Shown: positions 6,376-32,233 of the stretch, piece after piece
Layout: the number at the start of each line of letters is the position of its first letter
Position numbering within the stretch: the first letter of the stretch is position 1
NCBI GenBank assembly: GCA_026706485.1
Contig: JAPOYR010000013.1
Span: 62,001 to 126,000, forward strand
From: Chloroflexota bacterium
Lineage (GTDB): Bacteria > Chloroflexota > UBA11872
Length of the DNA stretch: 64,000 nucleotides
Direction: 5' to 3'
Program-made: the position numbers and the translations under genes
The notes under the pieces: model-generated
Told to the model about the DNA's origin: nothing
Database searches by the model: none
The model's input: the letters and a program-made list of their open reading frames with translations, nothing else

Positions 6376-8487
6376 CTATGCGTCCGGGATGAACCACTGG
6401 AACGCGCGATAGGGCTTCGTGAAGTTGGCCCCAGCGCCGAACCACAGGTTCTCCTCGTCGTCCGGGAAGTTCTTCACCCGGTTGTTGATGATCACCGGCT
6501 GCGGGGCAAGCCCCACGGTGCCGATCACCGTCAACTGCTCCGCCTGCCACCCGAAGTACTGCCGACCGAGGTCGTCGTACTCCGCAGTGCCGGGCGCAGC
6601 CAGCTGCCAGGCGAACTTCAGGTCGGCGTTGGCCTTGATCTCCGCCGGCGGCTCCGCGCCCTCGGCGCCGTCGGTGGCGAACCATCGCGTCCAACCGCCG
6701 GCCCAGACGGCTCGCTTGCCCTTGTAGCCCCAGACCCACGGGACCCAGCGGGTGAAGTACCCGGCGGCTTCCGTGTGCTCGGTCCCGATCATGATCTCGG
6801 TGAGCTGGTCCAAGCGCTCCTCGTACAGCGGGCGCTCCATCTGGTTCCACTGGGTGTCGAGACCGACGTCACGCCAGTTCTCGGCCACCAGCTCGGCGAT
6901 CGCGTCCTTCGGGCCTTCCTGGTCACCGATCTCGAAGATCAGCGTCAGGCGCTCACCGTCCGGTCGCAGTCGCCAGCCTTCGCCGTCGCGCTGGTCGAGG
7001 CCGATGCCATCGAGCAGCTCGTTGGCCTTGGCCGGGTCGAACTCGGTGTGGATCGTGCCCCAGTGGTCCTCGTAGAACGTGTAGCTCGGGAGGATGGTCC
7101 CCTGGAACGGCGTTGCCAGACCGAAGAACACCGCGTCGTTGATGGCGTCACGGTCGATGGCCACTGACAGCGCGATGCGGAAGTCGAGCTCCTGGAAGAT
7201 CTCGGCAACCGCCGCGTCCTTGTACGTCCAGTTGGGCTGGAGCGCCAAGGCCGAGCTTCGGAGCGCCTTGCTGATCAGCGTCCGATAGTTGCCCGAGCCC
7301 TCGTTGTCGCGGTACAGCGGCATGTTGTTGAAGTCGAGCTCGAACTGCCCGAAGTCCAACGATCCCGCCGTAATGCGGATCTGGTAGACCTCTTTGTCCG
7401 ACAGCAACTCGTAGTTCAGACCGTCCACGTAGGGAAGCTGGTTCCCCTCGGTGTCGACGATGTGGTAGTACGGGTTGCGGTCGAGCGACGCGCGGTCCGC
7501 CGAGTGGGCCGTCAGCGTCCACGGCGCCAGCACCGGGCGGTTCACCGCATGCTCGGTAAACCAGGTCTGGTGCGCGCCCCAGCGCATCTTGGCCTTGAAG
7601 AGCTGCGTCCAGTCGTCGAACCCCTCGTCGGTCGCCATCTTCGGGGCGTCCGCGTTGAAGTCCGCGTGGTACTGCTCCATGTAGTGCGAGGACAGGTAGA
7701 ACCCGCGCTCGCTACCACCACGGCCCAGCCGGTCCAGCAGGATCGGCACGGGGTCCGGATAGGAGATCTCCACCGTCAGCTCGTCGGGCGTCTCGACCTT
7801 CGGCGGCTTGCCGTTGATCTTCGGGCCCGGGCCGGACGGCGAAAGCTCTTCATTCACCATGTAGTTGTCGAAGTGCCACTGGAAGTTGGCGGACGTGAAC
7901 GGCGCCCCGTCCGACCACTTGTGGCCCTTGCGCAACTCGTAGACAACGGTGGTGCCGTCGGAGCTCACGTGGTGGCTCTTGACGGCGTCGTTGACCAGCG
8001 CGGTGCCCTCCATGTTGTAGGCCACGGCGTCGGTGCGGTTGGCGTTGCCAATGTCCACCGAAATCGCCACGCTGGCCCAGTTGGTGCGGCCACCGTAGTT
8101 GCCGATCGCTTCCCACGGCTGCCAGATCAGCGGCTCGTCGGGCAGGCGCTCTTCAACCGGCGGAAGCTCGCCTGCGGCAACCATGTCGGCCAGCGCCGGC
8201 GCTTCCTTGTAGTCCTTGCCGAGTTCATACGTCATGCCCGTGTTTCGGTCGTGCTCGGGCATCGCCATGACTTCGGCCGGGGCCTCCGTCGGAGCGGCCG
8301 TCGGCGCCTCGGTCATGGCGGCAGTCGGGGCGGCTGTGGGCGCGGCAGTCGGAGCCGGCGTTGCCGGCGCCGCGGTCGCCTCGGCTACCTCTTCGGCCTC
8401 ACCACAAGCGGCCAGGACGCCAACTGCGGCGGCTCCGGCCGTGACGGCGAGCATTCGCCGTCTACTTAGCAACAGGTCCTTCGTCAT
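6376..8487 (-). CDS. ABC transporter substrate-binding lipoprotein, family 5, Tat-exported
   Basis: A 703-residue solute-binding protein (SBP_bac_5/DppA-like), larger than the usual 500-600 aa. ATG 8485-8487 has a good ribosome site (GGGGGAGAGG). The N-terminus has a twin-arginine signal (SRRRMLAVTAG) followed by a lipobox LAAC with Cys28. A low-complexity Ala/Pro/Thr linker follows (about residues 30-75, units of APTAAPT). The mature domain shows family features such as YELRKGHKWSDGAPFTSANFQWHF. It captures oligopeptides or, given the neighbours, possibly oligosaccharides outside the membrane for the OppBCDF-type permease. First gene of the operon. Confidence 0.92.
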   Translation of the reverse strand: MTKDLLLSRRRMLAVTAGAAAVGVLAACGEAEEVAEATAAPATPAPTAAPTAAPTAAMTEAPTAAPTEAPAEVMAMPEHDRNTGMTYELGKDYKEAPALADMVAAGELPPVEERLPDEPLIWQPWEAIGNYGGRTNWASVAISVDIGNANRTDAVAYNMEGTALVNDAVKSHHVSSDGTTVVYELRKGHKWSDGAPFTSANFQWHFDNYMVNEELSPSGPGPKINGKPPKVETPDELTVEISYPDPVPILLDRLGRGGSERGFYLSSHYMEQYHADFNADAPKMATDEGFDDWTQLFKAKMRWGAHQTWFTEHAVNRPVLAPWTLTAHSADRASLDRNPYYHIVDTEGNQLPYVDGLNYELLSDKEVYQIRITAGSLDFGQFELDFNNMPLYRDNEGSGNYRTLISKALRSSALALQPNWTYKDAAVAEIFQELDFRIALSVAIDRDAINDAVFFGLATPFQGTILPSYTFYEDHWGTIHTEFDPAKANELLDGIGLDQRDGEGWRLRPDGERLTLIFEIGDQEGPKDAIAELVAENWRDVGLDTQWNQMERPLYEERLDQLTEIMIGTEHTEAAGYFTRWVPWVWGYKGKRAVWAGGWTRWFATDGAEGAEPPAEIKANADLKFAWQLAAPGTAEYDDLGRQYFGWQAEQLTVIGTVGLAPQPVIINNRVKNFPDDEENLWFGAGANFTKPYRAFQWFIPDA

Positions 8488-24363: not shown

Positions 24364-24585
24364 ACGGGAAGCGTCGCTGGCGCATTCTGATCTCAATCAA
24401 TGTCATTGACATTGACTATGATTACACGCCATGATTCTGAAGAGACTCTTGCGTAATCCCTCCGTCATTCCGGCGGAGGCCGGAATCCAGTCCGGGCGAA
24501 TCTTGAGGTGGGCCGGACGCTCGGCGTCGGGCGGGTCTCAGACCCGCCCCTACCGGATTCGGCAATGGTCTCGGGAAGGTGTGCC
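24364..24585. repeat. Intergenic repeats upstream of the toxin-antitoxin pair
   Basis: A 222-nt gap containing three elements: a 19-bp perfect palindrome at 24397-24415 in an AT-rich patch, an interspersed repeat at 24462-24493 (CGTCATTCCGGCGGAGGCCG type) and a GCGGGTCT-C-AGACCCGC palindrome at 24531-24547 followed by CCCCTAC. No coding signal is seen. Confidence 0.6.
24397..24415. promoter_or_regulatory. 19-bp perfect palindrome, possible operator
   Basis: TCAATGTCATTGACATTGA has 9-bp arms around one central T and lies in an AT-rich island. A TTGACA (24406-24411) is embedded in it, with CATGAT 18 nt downstream (24430-24435), so it could overlie a promoter facing the RHH/ParE genes. Those genes start ~150 nt further on, so the link is uncertain. 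Confidence 0.4.
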
Positions 24586-24807
24586 ATGACGCAGATCACC
24601 GCGCGCGTGCCGGACGAGCTGGCGGAATCGCTGGACGCGGCCGCGGCGATGCTCAAGCGCAGCCGCGCCGCGGTAGTCCGCCAGGCGTTGGAGCAATACC
24701 TGGAAGACTTCGACGACCTGTCCGTCGCGCTGGACCGGCTGCGGGATCCCGCGGACCCCGTGCTGGACTGGGACGAGGTCAGGCGTGACCTACTCGGTTC
24801 GGATTAA
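24586..24807 (+). CDS. Ribbon-helix-helix (CopG/ParD-like) antitoxin
   Basis: A 73-residue protein from ATG 24586. The N-terminal ribbon and two helices follow the RHH pattern (TQITARVPDELAESLDAAAAMLKRSRAAVVRQALEQYLED), and the acidic tail (PADPVLDWDEVRRDLLGSD) would wrap the toxin. It overlaps the downstream RelE/ParE-type gene by 23 nt. It should neutralise the toxin and repress the operon. Confidence 0.88.
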   Translation: MTQITARVPDELAESLDAAAAMLKRSRAAVVRQALEQYLEDFDDLSVALDRLRDPADPVLDWDEVRRDLLGSD

Positions 24808-25045
24808 GCGCAGCGCGTCGCGAGAACTGGCCCGTATTCCCCAGCCGGCAAGGGCGCGCTTGATCCGAGCTATTGACGGTCTCGGCAAGCAGCCGTTCAG
24901 CGGCAGCGTCCTCAAGGGAGGGCTTCGCGGCCTGCGGCGCGTGCGCGTCGGCGACTACCGCATCGTGTACGAGGTGCTCGACGATGAGTTGGTCGTCCTC
25001 GTGATTCGCGTCGCTCGGCGTGGAGCCGCCTACCGACCAATCTGA
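24785..25045 (+). CDS. RelE/ParE family toxin
   Basis: An 86-residue basic protein starting at GTG 24785, inside the antitoxin 3' end. The family fold is recognisable: SVRIKRSASRELARIPQPARARLIRAIDGL, then LRGLRRVRVGDYRIVYEVLDDELVVLVIRVARRGAAYR. The GDYRIVYEV and RVARRGAAY motifs are typical of RelE-type mRNA interferases. It likely forms an intact type II module with the preceding RHH gene. ParE-type gyrase inhibition is the alternative activity. Confidence 0.88.
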   Translation: MTYSVRIKRSASRELARIPQPARARLIRAIDGLGKQPFSGSVLKGGLRGLRRVRVGDYRIVYEVLDDELVVLVIRVARRGAAYRPI

Positions 25046-29852: not shown

Positions 29853-29911
29853 AAGGGTCCTCGCCCACATACACTCGTAGTCCCCGCGGCGCGAAACCTC
29901 TGCGTGCACGC

Positions 29912-29935
29912 AGGGGCGGTTCGCGAACCGCCCCT
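29912..29935. repeat. 24-nt perfect GC palindrome of the GGGGCGG family
   Basis: AGGGGCGGTTCG and its exact complement are joined without a loop and followed by ACTCGG. The same element type occurs at 18103-18390 and 24531-24554. It lies between convergent genes, where it may stop transcription or be a mobile REP-like unit. Confidence 0.6.
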
Positions 29936-29982
29936 ACTCGGACGATTCGTCACGGGCTGACCTAGCTCCGGTTGTCCACTCG

Positions 29983-30078
29983 TTAGTCACAGACCTCGCC
30001 TGGTGAGTAGTCGTATATTTCGGCTACCGAATAGTCATCGATTTCGACTAGCGAGTAGTAACAGACCTCGACTGGCGA
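29983..30078 (-). repeat. Four in-frame 24-bp tandem repeats (octapeptide tail)
   Basis: Units 30055-30078, 30031-30054, 30007-30030 and 29983-30006 encode SPVEVCYY, SLVEIDDY, SVAEIYDY and SPGEVCD-stop. The DNA copies differ mainly by substitutions, with no indels, and the last unit uses its final codon as the stop. Acidic and tyrosine-rich. Confidence 0.85.
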
Positions 30079-31137
30079 AGACCGACCTCTAAACCAATCG
30101 ATCGCCCTCTGTAGCGCGGAGCCGGCGGCGTCCTGGAAGTTCTCGAACAGCGTCGCCGATCTTGCCCAGACTTGCTTGGAAATCTCCTTCGACGTGTCCC
30201 AGGCGCCCAGCAGCGGATCGAAGCCAGCGTCCTTCCAACTCTTGGCCGCGGTGTAGAACTGGTAGCCCAGAAAGGCAAAGCCAACAAAGGCCAATGGCAA
30301 TACAAATGGGCTAATAACCGCCGTCAGCGCGGGGAAGATCATCACCAAACCGGCAATGATTCCGGTGATGCCGATCCCAACGGCAGTCCCCACGCCTAAC
30401 TCCTTCCATACCAGGTCAAAAAGCTCGCTTTGATCAATTTCGCCCTCTTGATACGACAGTCCGTGCTCCATGACGGCGAATACCCCGGCCGTAACAGGCC
30501 CAACCAGAGCCCCGGCCACCGTTACTCTCGCTGTCTGCCTGATGGCATCCTTCACGGCTTGCGTCCGCAGTGCCATTCGTGCCGCTTCAATCTCAGTGGC
30601 AGTCATTGGCTTCGCGCCTCTGGATCGATTCAGCACCGAGTCCTCGAAGATGCCCTCACTGGCGCTGTCGCCGCCGCCGAGGATGCGGGGAATGAAGTGG
30701 CTCCAGTCCCGGCTGCTGTGAAATCGCCGCAACGCTTCCGGCCCGCCCATGCGGATTTGACGCGGAATCGTCTCCCAAATCGCCTGCGCGCCAGCCCGAT
30801 CACGGTATGCGGCTCCTGCTCGACGGTAGTAGTCGGCCAAGTCCCGTGGCACGGAAATGAACTCGAGGTTCGCGCGCCAAACGTTGACAAACAACCCCGC
30901 GACCCAGAACGGTAAGGCGCCAGTGCGGACGTATTGCTGCACCTCCGGGTCTTTGGCGGCCTCCGTCAGGCCGTCGATGACGATTAGGTCCGACTCTTCG
31001 CTGACGGGGTCGGGCTCTTGGGCAAGAGCAGGGCGATCAAGAGCAACGTCTAGCCCGCCGGCCGCGAGGCTCGCAACTGAGAGCTGCAGGAAGCGTCTGC
31101 GGTTTAGCTCTGCGCGCTCGACAGCTTTGGACACCAT
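29983..31137 (-). CDS. Tat-exported orphan membrane protein with C-terminal octapeptide repeats
   Basis: A 384-residue protein of unknown family with lower GC than its neighbours. The N-terminus has a twin-arginine signal (ELNRRRFLQLSVASLAAGG), probably cleaved after ALAQ or kept as an anchor. The middle is helical (VPRDLADYYRRAGAAYRDRA). Hydrophobic segments lie at about 205-230 and 265-310 (VGIGITGIIAGLVMIFPALTA). The last 32 codons are four tandem 8-residue repeats of pattern S-x-x-E-(V/I)-x-(D/Y)-Y, the fourth ending at the stop. The start is convincing because of the Tat motif. Flanked by convergent and repeat-rich DNA, it may have been acquired horizontally. Confidence 0.75.
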   Translation of the reverse strand: MVSKAVERAELNRRRFLQLSVASLAAGGLDVALDRPALAQEPDPVSEESDLIVIDGLTEAAKDPEVQQYVRTGALPFWVAGLFVNVWRANLEFISVPRDLADYYRRAGAAYRDRAGAQAIWETIPRQIRMGGPEALRRFHSSRDWSHFIPRILGGGDSASEGIFEDSVLNRSRGAKPMTATEIEAARMALRTQAVKDAIRQTARVTVAGALVGPVTAGVFAVMEHGLSYQEGEIDQSELFDLVWKELGVGTAVGIGITGIIAGLVMIFPALTAVISPFVLPLAFVGFAFLGYQFYTAAKSWKDAGFDPLLGAWDTSKEISKQVWARSATLFENFQDAAGSALQRAIDWFRGRSSPVEVCYYSLVEIDDYSVAEIYDYSPGEVCD

Positions 31138-31141
31138 TGGC

Positions 31142-32233
31142 TCAGGCCCACGGATCGAGGGCGACTTTGATCACTCCGTCGGCGGGCATGGCTGAGCGGA
31201 CGAGCTCGATGCCCTGCGCGGCCTGGGCCAATGGCAGGCGGTGGGTGAGCATGCGGTCGAGCGGATAGCGCCCCGATTCGGCCAACTGGACGGCCGCGCG
31301 GACGGTCTGGGTCTCGTGACTGTTGACGCCGAGTACGCGGACCTCGCGGGCTACCAGCCGGTCCCAGGGCAGCTCGACCGGCGCGCCGCCTTTCGACCCG
31401 GCCATAACGAACGTGCCGAGTGGCCGCACCACCGAGGCCGCTTGGCCGGCCGCATGAGGACTGGCGGTTACGTCAATCGCGACGTCCACCAGGCGGCCTT
31501 CGGTGAGCGCCGCGATCTCGGCGAAGGTCGAATCGGAGGCAATCAGCGTGTCGGTGGCGCCAAACTCGCAGGCAAGCTCGAGCCGGGCGCGGTCCCGCAA
31601 CAAGCCCACCACGATGATCTGCCCGGCGCCAGCCGCGTGGGCCGCGATGGTGCAGGCCAGCCCCTGCGGTCCAGGTCCAAAGACGACGACCGTGTCGCCG
31701 ATGCCGGCATTCCCCAGCGTTTGCACCCAGCGGATGCCGTTGGCGAGCACCGCGCCGATCACGACGCCGACTTCGGGCGTGATCCGCTCAGAGACGCGAT
31801 GCACGCGGGCGCGCGGCGGCAGGTAGAGGAACTGGCCGTAGGCGCCCCAGAGGTGGGGCGGCTCGGCGGCGGAGACGCGACCGCCGTAGCCCTGCTCGTC
31901 GGCACACATCTGGTAGGAGCCGCGGCGGCACCACTCGCAGCGGCCGCAACCGAAGCTGGCCTCGACGATGACGCGGTCGCCGACGGCTGCCTGCCAGCGT
32001 TTGGCGGCGTCCGCGCCCACCCGTTCGATGCGGCCCACGATCTCGTGGCCCAGCAGGGCGGGGACGTTGCGGATGACGGCGGAGTGGCCGTCCCAGTGGT
32101 GGATGTCGCTGCCGCAGATGCCAGCAAGCTCGACGCGCAGCAGGCCGTCGTCGTCGCCGGTTTCGGGGAGTGGGAAGTCGCGCGGCTCGATGCGGTGCGG
32201 GGCCACGAGCACGGCGCCGCGGCTGACGGTCAC
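31142..32233 (-). CDS. Zinc-dependent alcohol dehydrogenase (medium-chain dehydrogenase/reductase)
   Basis: A 363-residue MDR enzyme starting at GTG 32231-32233. Catalytic zinc residues: Cys in GICGSDIHHW, His-Glu in LLGHEIVG and a third ligand downstream. The structural zinc has its four cysteines in CGRCEWCRRGSYQMC. The NAD(P)-binding motif is VVVFGPGPQGL. It resembles threonine/sorbitol-type dehydrogenases and probably oxidises a polyol or secondary alcohol. An interspersed repeat lies just upstream of its start. The next gene on the strand is unrelated. Confidence 0.9.
   Translation of the reverse strand: MTVSRGAVLVAPHRIEPRDFPLPETGDDDGLLRVELAGICGSDIHHWDGHSAVIRNVPALLGHEIVGRIERVGADAAKRWQAAVGDRVIVEASFGCGRCEWCRRGSYQMCADEQGYGGRVSAAEPPHLWGAYGQFLYLPPRARVHRVSERITPEVGVVIGAVLANGIRWVQTLGNAGIGDTVVVFGPGPQGLACTIAAHAAGAGQIIVVGLLRDRARLELACEFGATDTLIASDSTFAEIAALTEGRLVDVAIDVTASPHAAGQAASVVRPLGTFVMAGSKGGAPVELPWDRLVAREVRVLGVNSHETQTVRAAVQLAESGRYPLDRMLTHRLPLAQAAQGIELVRSAMPADGVIKVALDPWA

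Follow-up and report, generated by a model that had tools for sequence, protein, structure and literature searches.

Gene and insertion site

The window, a stretch of 64,000 nucleotides from a Chloroflexota bacterium, carries on its reverse strand an ORF of 384 aa (29983-31137; ATG at 31137, TAA at 29983-29985), the start codon of which lies 4 nt past the stop of an alcohol-dehydrogenase-like (ADH) gene (31142-32233). The gene is single-copy in the window genome and, as a preliminary description had claimed, differs in composition from its neighbours, its GC (0.600) and GC3 (0.70) being below those of all eight flanking ORFs (GC 0.667-0.714, GC3 0.85-0.90). The features of the locus are as follows.

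29853..31141, no strand: insertion of 1289 bp between a PLP-decarboxylase-like gene and the ADH gene, from ORF coordinates in L057, L060 and L062 and the empty sites of G004 and G005
29983..31137, reverse strand: ORF of 384 aa with Tat-like signal, HNH-like core, hydrophobic hairpin and octapeptide tail, from the ORF call and homologues
31018..31137, reverse strand: Tat-like signal, residues 1-40, NRRRFLQLSVASLAAGGLDVALDRPALA-Q, from sequence, with Pfam TAT_signal at 11.8 bits against a cut-off of 22.7
30601..30711, reverse strand: HNH-like motif RDWSHFIPRILGGGDSASEGIFEDSVLNRSRGAKPMT, residues 143-179, from an 18-sequence alignment and profile-profile comparison with canonical HNH
30466..30528, reverse strand: first hydrophobic segment, residues 204-224, from Kyte-Doolittle hydropathy over 1.5 (window 19)
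30259..30402, reverse strand: hydrophobic segment of 48 residues, 246-293, from hydropathy, conserved in all homologues
29983..30078, reverse strand: octapeptide tail of four 24-nt units, SPVEVCYY, SLVEIDDY, SVAEIYDY and SPGEVCD-stop, net charge -8, from TRF, a repeat finder and shuffles, conserved in G002
30061..30063, reverse strand: codon of Cys359 in tail unit 1, conserved in G002 as C386
29989..29991, reverse strand: codon of Cys383 in tail unit 4, conserved in G002 as C410

The gap between the ADH and decarboxylase genes measures 1289 bp in the window and 2318 bp in the congeneric genome G002 (L057 6845-9162), against 15 bp in G003 and G004 (by ORF ends, 3010/3026 in L060 and 6568/6584 in L062), and it is likewise short in G005. 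Because of these short gaps and the presence of the gene in only two of six congeneric genomes (G002 being the sole one of five congeners with an orthologue, 68% identical), we conclude that this is a single-gene insertion of an accessory kind, and at its edges we identified neither repeats nor target duplications.

Several further observations concern the surroundings of the gene. In G002, the gap holds an endonuclease/exonuclease/phosphatase-like gene in addition to the homologue, and in G001 a different sequence follows the ADH gene. A perfect 24-nt palindrome, AGGGGCGGTTCGCGAACCGCCCCT, is located at window 29912-29935, between the repeat-tailed gene and the decarboxylase gene; a similar sequence, GGTTCGCGAACC, lies 3' of the ADH gene in G001 and may represent a dispersed element or a terminator. 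Elsewhere in the window (24508-25045), two adjoining small ORFs resemble by eye a RelB/RelE-type toxin-antitoxin pair (ribbon-helix-helix-like, then RelE-like), the first of which had no counterpart in the compared stretches of G002 or G004.

The octapeptide tail

The four units of the tail lie in frame at 30055-30078, 30031-30054, 30007-30030 and 29983-30006 (reverse strand), the last ending GAC-TAA with the stop in place of the final Tyr codon, just as initially described. A 24-nt period was reported by TRF and by a second repeat finder, and the best 24-nt periodic match was 49/72, against a mean of 29.7 and a maximum of 39 in 2000 codon shuffles of the gene; for periods of 6 to 60 nt, none attained 49 in 500 shuffles. 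Another array in the window (8271-8355), with a 12-nt period, gives 48/72 at 24-nt spacing, about the strength of the tail. A degenerate unit pattern found only this gene in G000 and G002, ruling out that the tail is a dispersed genomic repeat; two further genomes of the family gave one more match apiece, that in L054 being an internal, unrepeated SPGEIDDF.

We found that G002 retains the tail as ISSGDICDY, SLVEIDDY, SVAEIYAF and SPVEICD-stop, with four units in the same order as in the window, although the linker ahead of them is 29 residues longer in G002. The two proteins share 68.8% identity in the tail and 67.8% in the body; four synonymous changes were counted in units 2 and 3, which agree in 14 of 16 residues, and divergence is seen in units 1 and 4. 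Variation in unit number, earlier put forward as a possible sign of a surface or phase role, was not found, with four units each in the window and G002. As to whether homologues lack the tail throughout, the sole congeneric homologue keeps all four units, but the octapeptide tail is missing in the nine other close homologues.

The tail seems to be a recent addition, born perhaps when the final 24 bp of the gene were duplicated in tandem, in an event that would be older than the split of the two species in the genus, with the four units and the cysteines in units 1 and 4 kept since. The C-termini of the homologues in G217 and G083 read ...WLRETFSPV(V/A)P-stop and fit the start of the first unit, SPVE, suggesting that the SPV seed is probably the old C-terminus. 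In addition, unrelated but significant C-terminal repeats with periods of 33 nt (G040, G120 and Binatia) and 21 nt (Entotheonella) suggest that proteins of this family are apt to lengthen at this end through tandem duplication. The same repeats, of 11 or 7 residues, imply that the end tolerates repeats, and so would also fit an alternative in which the gene is loosely constrained, its final codons were copied by replication slippage and the added residues are idle. That the tail is carried by two species only, that its dN/dS is about 0.47 (on few sites, namely 32 codons and one congeneric orthologue) and that units 1 and 4 have diverged are likewise consistent with an idle tail; however, unit number and frame are equal and both cysteines are kept despite the altered linker, and the near identity of units 2 and 3 at the protein level in spite of synonymous changes also argues against it, so that we consider this alternative possible but doubtful.

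If the tail was instead retained for a function, the best concrete clue to its role, judging from the sequence, appears to be the cysteine pair, since Cys359 and Cys383 are the only cysteines of the window protein and both are kept in G002. The tail would then be an acidic, Tyr-rich appendage that determines binding or placement and not catalysis; were it to lie outside, a C359-C383 disulfide might close it. It would also offer a clean case of a new C-terminal appendage that arose from duplication at a stop codon and was kept with its own cysteine pair.

Distribution and allele replacement

The protein had been taken for an orphan with a body of no nameable family. The first of these claims does not hold, as we found ten close homologues (39-68% identity) in Chloroflexota, Entotheonella, Binatia and Nitrospirales MAGs, together with remote plasmid-borne kin. 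The second is true of curated libraries, since searches of Pfam, NCBIfam, PHROGs and PADLOC gave no match that was over a curated cut-off or convincing by E-value, but homologues do exist. A match to MgtE (E 8e-4 to 1e-4, under the cut-off) was dismissed as compositional because it spans the hydrophobic part only; PDB sequence searches returned chance matches only, no defence-system model matched the protein convincingly, and a literature search yielded nothing on its family. Phages and viral contigs had no relatives, by which a phage or viral origin was ruled out.

The gene family is very rare. A profile search of 400 Chloroflexota genomes retrieved G000, G002, five genomes of another family in the same class (six full genes, two of them in G040) and the remote member in G050, and the Binatia, Entotheonella and Nitrospirales MAGs came from a scan of about 85,000 species genomes. 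Of the genomes searched by phylum, the gene was found in one of 198 in the Binatia phylum, one of five in that of Entotheonella and, as a full gene, one of 148 in that of Nitrospirales. In a tree, the window gene groups with that of G002 and, weakly (80/85), with the site-A alleles of genus g7. The Nitrospirales and Entotheonella copies share 85% identity, and the former, located on a 2.9-Mb record, has a GC of 0.646 where its flanks have 0.543, an indication of transfer between phyla. Entotheonella are described as sponge symbionts (PMC10227082), and sponge MAG sets contain Chloroflexota, Nitrospirota and Entotheonella together (PMC8163846); as none of the papers found names the MAGs of this analysis, a shared habitat of the carriers is a lead.

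Two divergent members were also observed. In Entotheonella (G401), L063 6282-6812 encodes a second member, truncated to the C-terminal region and a portion of the hydrophobic one, that is 87% identical to the Binatia protein and adjoins antiporter-like genes. The remote member in G050 (L061 5656-7329, 557 aa) has a long N-terminal extension with a possible lipoprotein start, VGLLLGAC, and a hydrophobic part like MamC (NCBIfam E 9e-5, under the cut-off).

The gene evolves fast. Between the window and G002 it is 67.9% identical, against 89.0-97.7% for six flanking genes, and simple Nei-Gojobori estimates of codon distances give a dN/dS of about 0.30, against 0.04-0.16 for flanking genes. A stronger contrast was seen at site A of genus g7, where the gene lies between an aldehyde dehydrogenase (ALDH) gene and a small ORF in four genomes: for the gene, five of six pairs show identities of 42.7-57.1% and pS of 0.71-0.77, whereas identities of 88.8-96.5% and pS of 0.26-0.42 were obtained for the SBP and ALDH genes that flank it. 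Such saturated synonymous sites inside unsaturated flanks mean that whole alleles have been replaced, rather than fast amino-acid change alone. The sixth pair, G083 and G217, looks orthologous (79%, pS 0.36), and at the second g7 site (G040 and G120) the gene behaves as an ordinary orthologue (78%), yet is less conserved than its neighbours.

HNH-like core, membrane segments and a possible envelope role

The preliminary description had the protein secreted by the Tat pathway. The start does carry RRRFLQ ... ALA-Q, and the RR motif is kept in the clade of the window gene, formed by the g1 and g7 site-A homologues of G002, G040 (site A), G157, G217 and G083, the last two with a lipobox-like end to the signal. 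However, the Pfam TAT_signal score is below threshold, the RR motif is missing in the other five close homologues, and the Binatia, Entotheonella, Nitrospirales and g7 site-B members have no signal, so that Tat export is suggestive, and for one clade. The broader description, of a membrane-associated protein of exported type with a foreign-looking composition and a repeat tail both real and retained, is supported at the level of sequence. Which side of the membrane the tail lies on depends on the number of predicted helices, which hydropathy allows to be read either way: the segment at residues 246-293 has the length to form a hairpin of two helices, with the conserved P269 at its turn, and with three membrane helices in all the tail would be cytoplasmic and a disulfide unlikely.

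Residues 143-179 contain the motif DWSHFIPRILGGGDSASEGIFEDSVLNRSRG, and the core pattern of the family is SH-x(n)-E-x4-N-x2-RG followed by the hydrophobic hairpin, with S146, H147, E165, N170 and R173 invariant in 18 aligned sequences from five phyla. When the core profile was compared by hhalign with canonical HNH domains drawn from the same group of genomes, it scored 28.6, while none of 150 column-shuffled controls exceeded 14.1 and the reversed profile gave 9.5; the alignment pairs SHFIPRILGG...LNRSRG with DHIIPRSKGG...CNRLKG, with H147 opposite the catalytic His and N170 opposite the final Asn. With Pfam HNH (PF01844), the window protein was not reported and relatives reached 13.1-17.0 bits, all under the cut-off of 21.4 (E=0.0068 for the isolated core of one relative and 0.04-0.11 for whole relatives). 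The final His/Asn metal ligand of HNH is present as the invariant N170; the residue ahead of the catalytic His is the equally invariant S146 rather than a metal ligand (D/E/H), and the middle Asn after the GG turn is not conserved (S-E-G in the window, DN in cyanobacterial relatives, variable in the close family). Because of this Ser and the middle Asn not being kept, we call the core HNH-like rather than a member of HNH, and catalysis may have been lost. AlphaFold models (pLDDT 44 and 51) were too poor to judge the fold and had no strands or beta-beta-alpha in the core region.

These substitutions, the strong divergence of alleles and the several kinds of C-terminal repeats would suit a pseudoenzyme, in which an HNH-derived scaffold without catalysis serves as a variable envelope receptor, decoy or adhesin and the repeats form a binding surface; the invariance of the five core residues across phyla instead suggests a working site, and we regard a pseudoenzyme as unlikely. 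A free-standing HNH homing-type selfish gene, which settles in the gaps between chromosomal genes and maintains itself by cleaving unoccupied sites, might likewise explain an HNH-like core in a single-gene insertion of low GC with short empty sites and transfer across phyla. Nevertheless, the export signal of the window clade, the membrane hairpin of all members, the non-canonical motif, the different neighbours at the three Chloroflexota sites and the insertion edges, where neither repeats nor target duplications were identified, make homing very improbable.

The explanation that we prefer, tentatively and with rather less than even confidence, is that of a horizontally exchanged, fast-evolving, single-gene accessory insertion encoding a membrane-anchored protein with an envelope role and a duplicated, retained tail, in which a compact HNH-like core (SH...E....N..RG) precedes a hydrophobic hairpin. 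In the window clade, the twin-arginine-type or lipoprotein-type signal should put the core outside the cytoplasm, and the most likely job of the protein would be an action at the cell envelope, on nucleic acid or on a partner, directed either against neighbours in competition or against incoming DNA. Since replacement of whole alleles at fixed chromosomal sites may be the product of an arms race, a role in envelope defence or competition is possible. A bolder proposal, which we consider quite unlikely as it stands, is that these proteins form a polymorphic family of HNH-like effectors or defence proteins anchored in the envelope, the genes of which pass singly between bacteria of at least four phyla possibly sharing a habitat, with whole alleles swapped at fixed sites; each lineage would make anew its C-terminal repeats of 7, 8 or 11 residues, to serve as interchangeable tails for specificity or docking. 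If borne out, these ideas would reveal in uncultured bacteria a very rare and so far unrecognised gene family, marked by replacement of alleles at fixed chromosomal sites and by spread across phylum borders, the pattern expected of defence or competition genes.

Among known systems, EndA and NucA are membrane-bound DNA-entry nucleases with a DRGH motif, and a nuclease domain anchored on the outside of the membrane would resemble them in function; however, their motif and anchoring are different, and no sequence match to them was found here. The remote kin are proteins of Nostocales, Leptolyngbyales and Pseudanabaenales plasmids (WP_179076706.1, WP_011316578.1, WP_224346758.1 and WP_281009653.1), annotated as hypothetical or, in two cases in RefSeq, as HNH endonuclease. 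They share both the HNH-like core and the hydrophobic region (tblastn matches to residues 120-290 of the window protein), but at about 20% identity, with no RR signal in their N-termini and no octapeptide tail. Compared with the HNH superfamily (PF01844, PF14279), the window family is under Pfam cut-offs, has Ser for Asp/His before the catalytic His, does not keep the middle Asn, has no CxxC zinc knuckle and is fused to a membrane hairpin, whereas the order H-I-x-P-R-S-x-G-G ... N-x-x-(R/K)-G, a profile-profile score twice that of the best shuffled control and the RefSeq name of the two plasmid relatives speak for the likeness.
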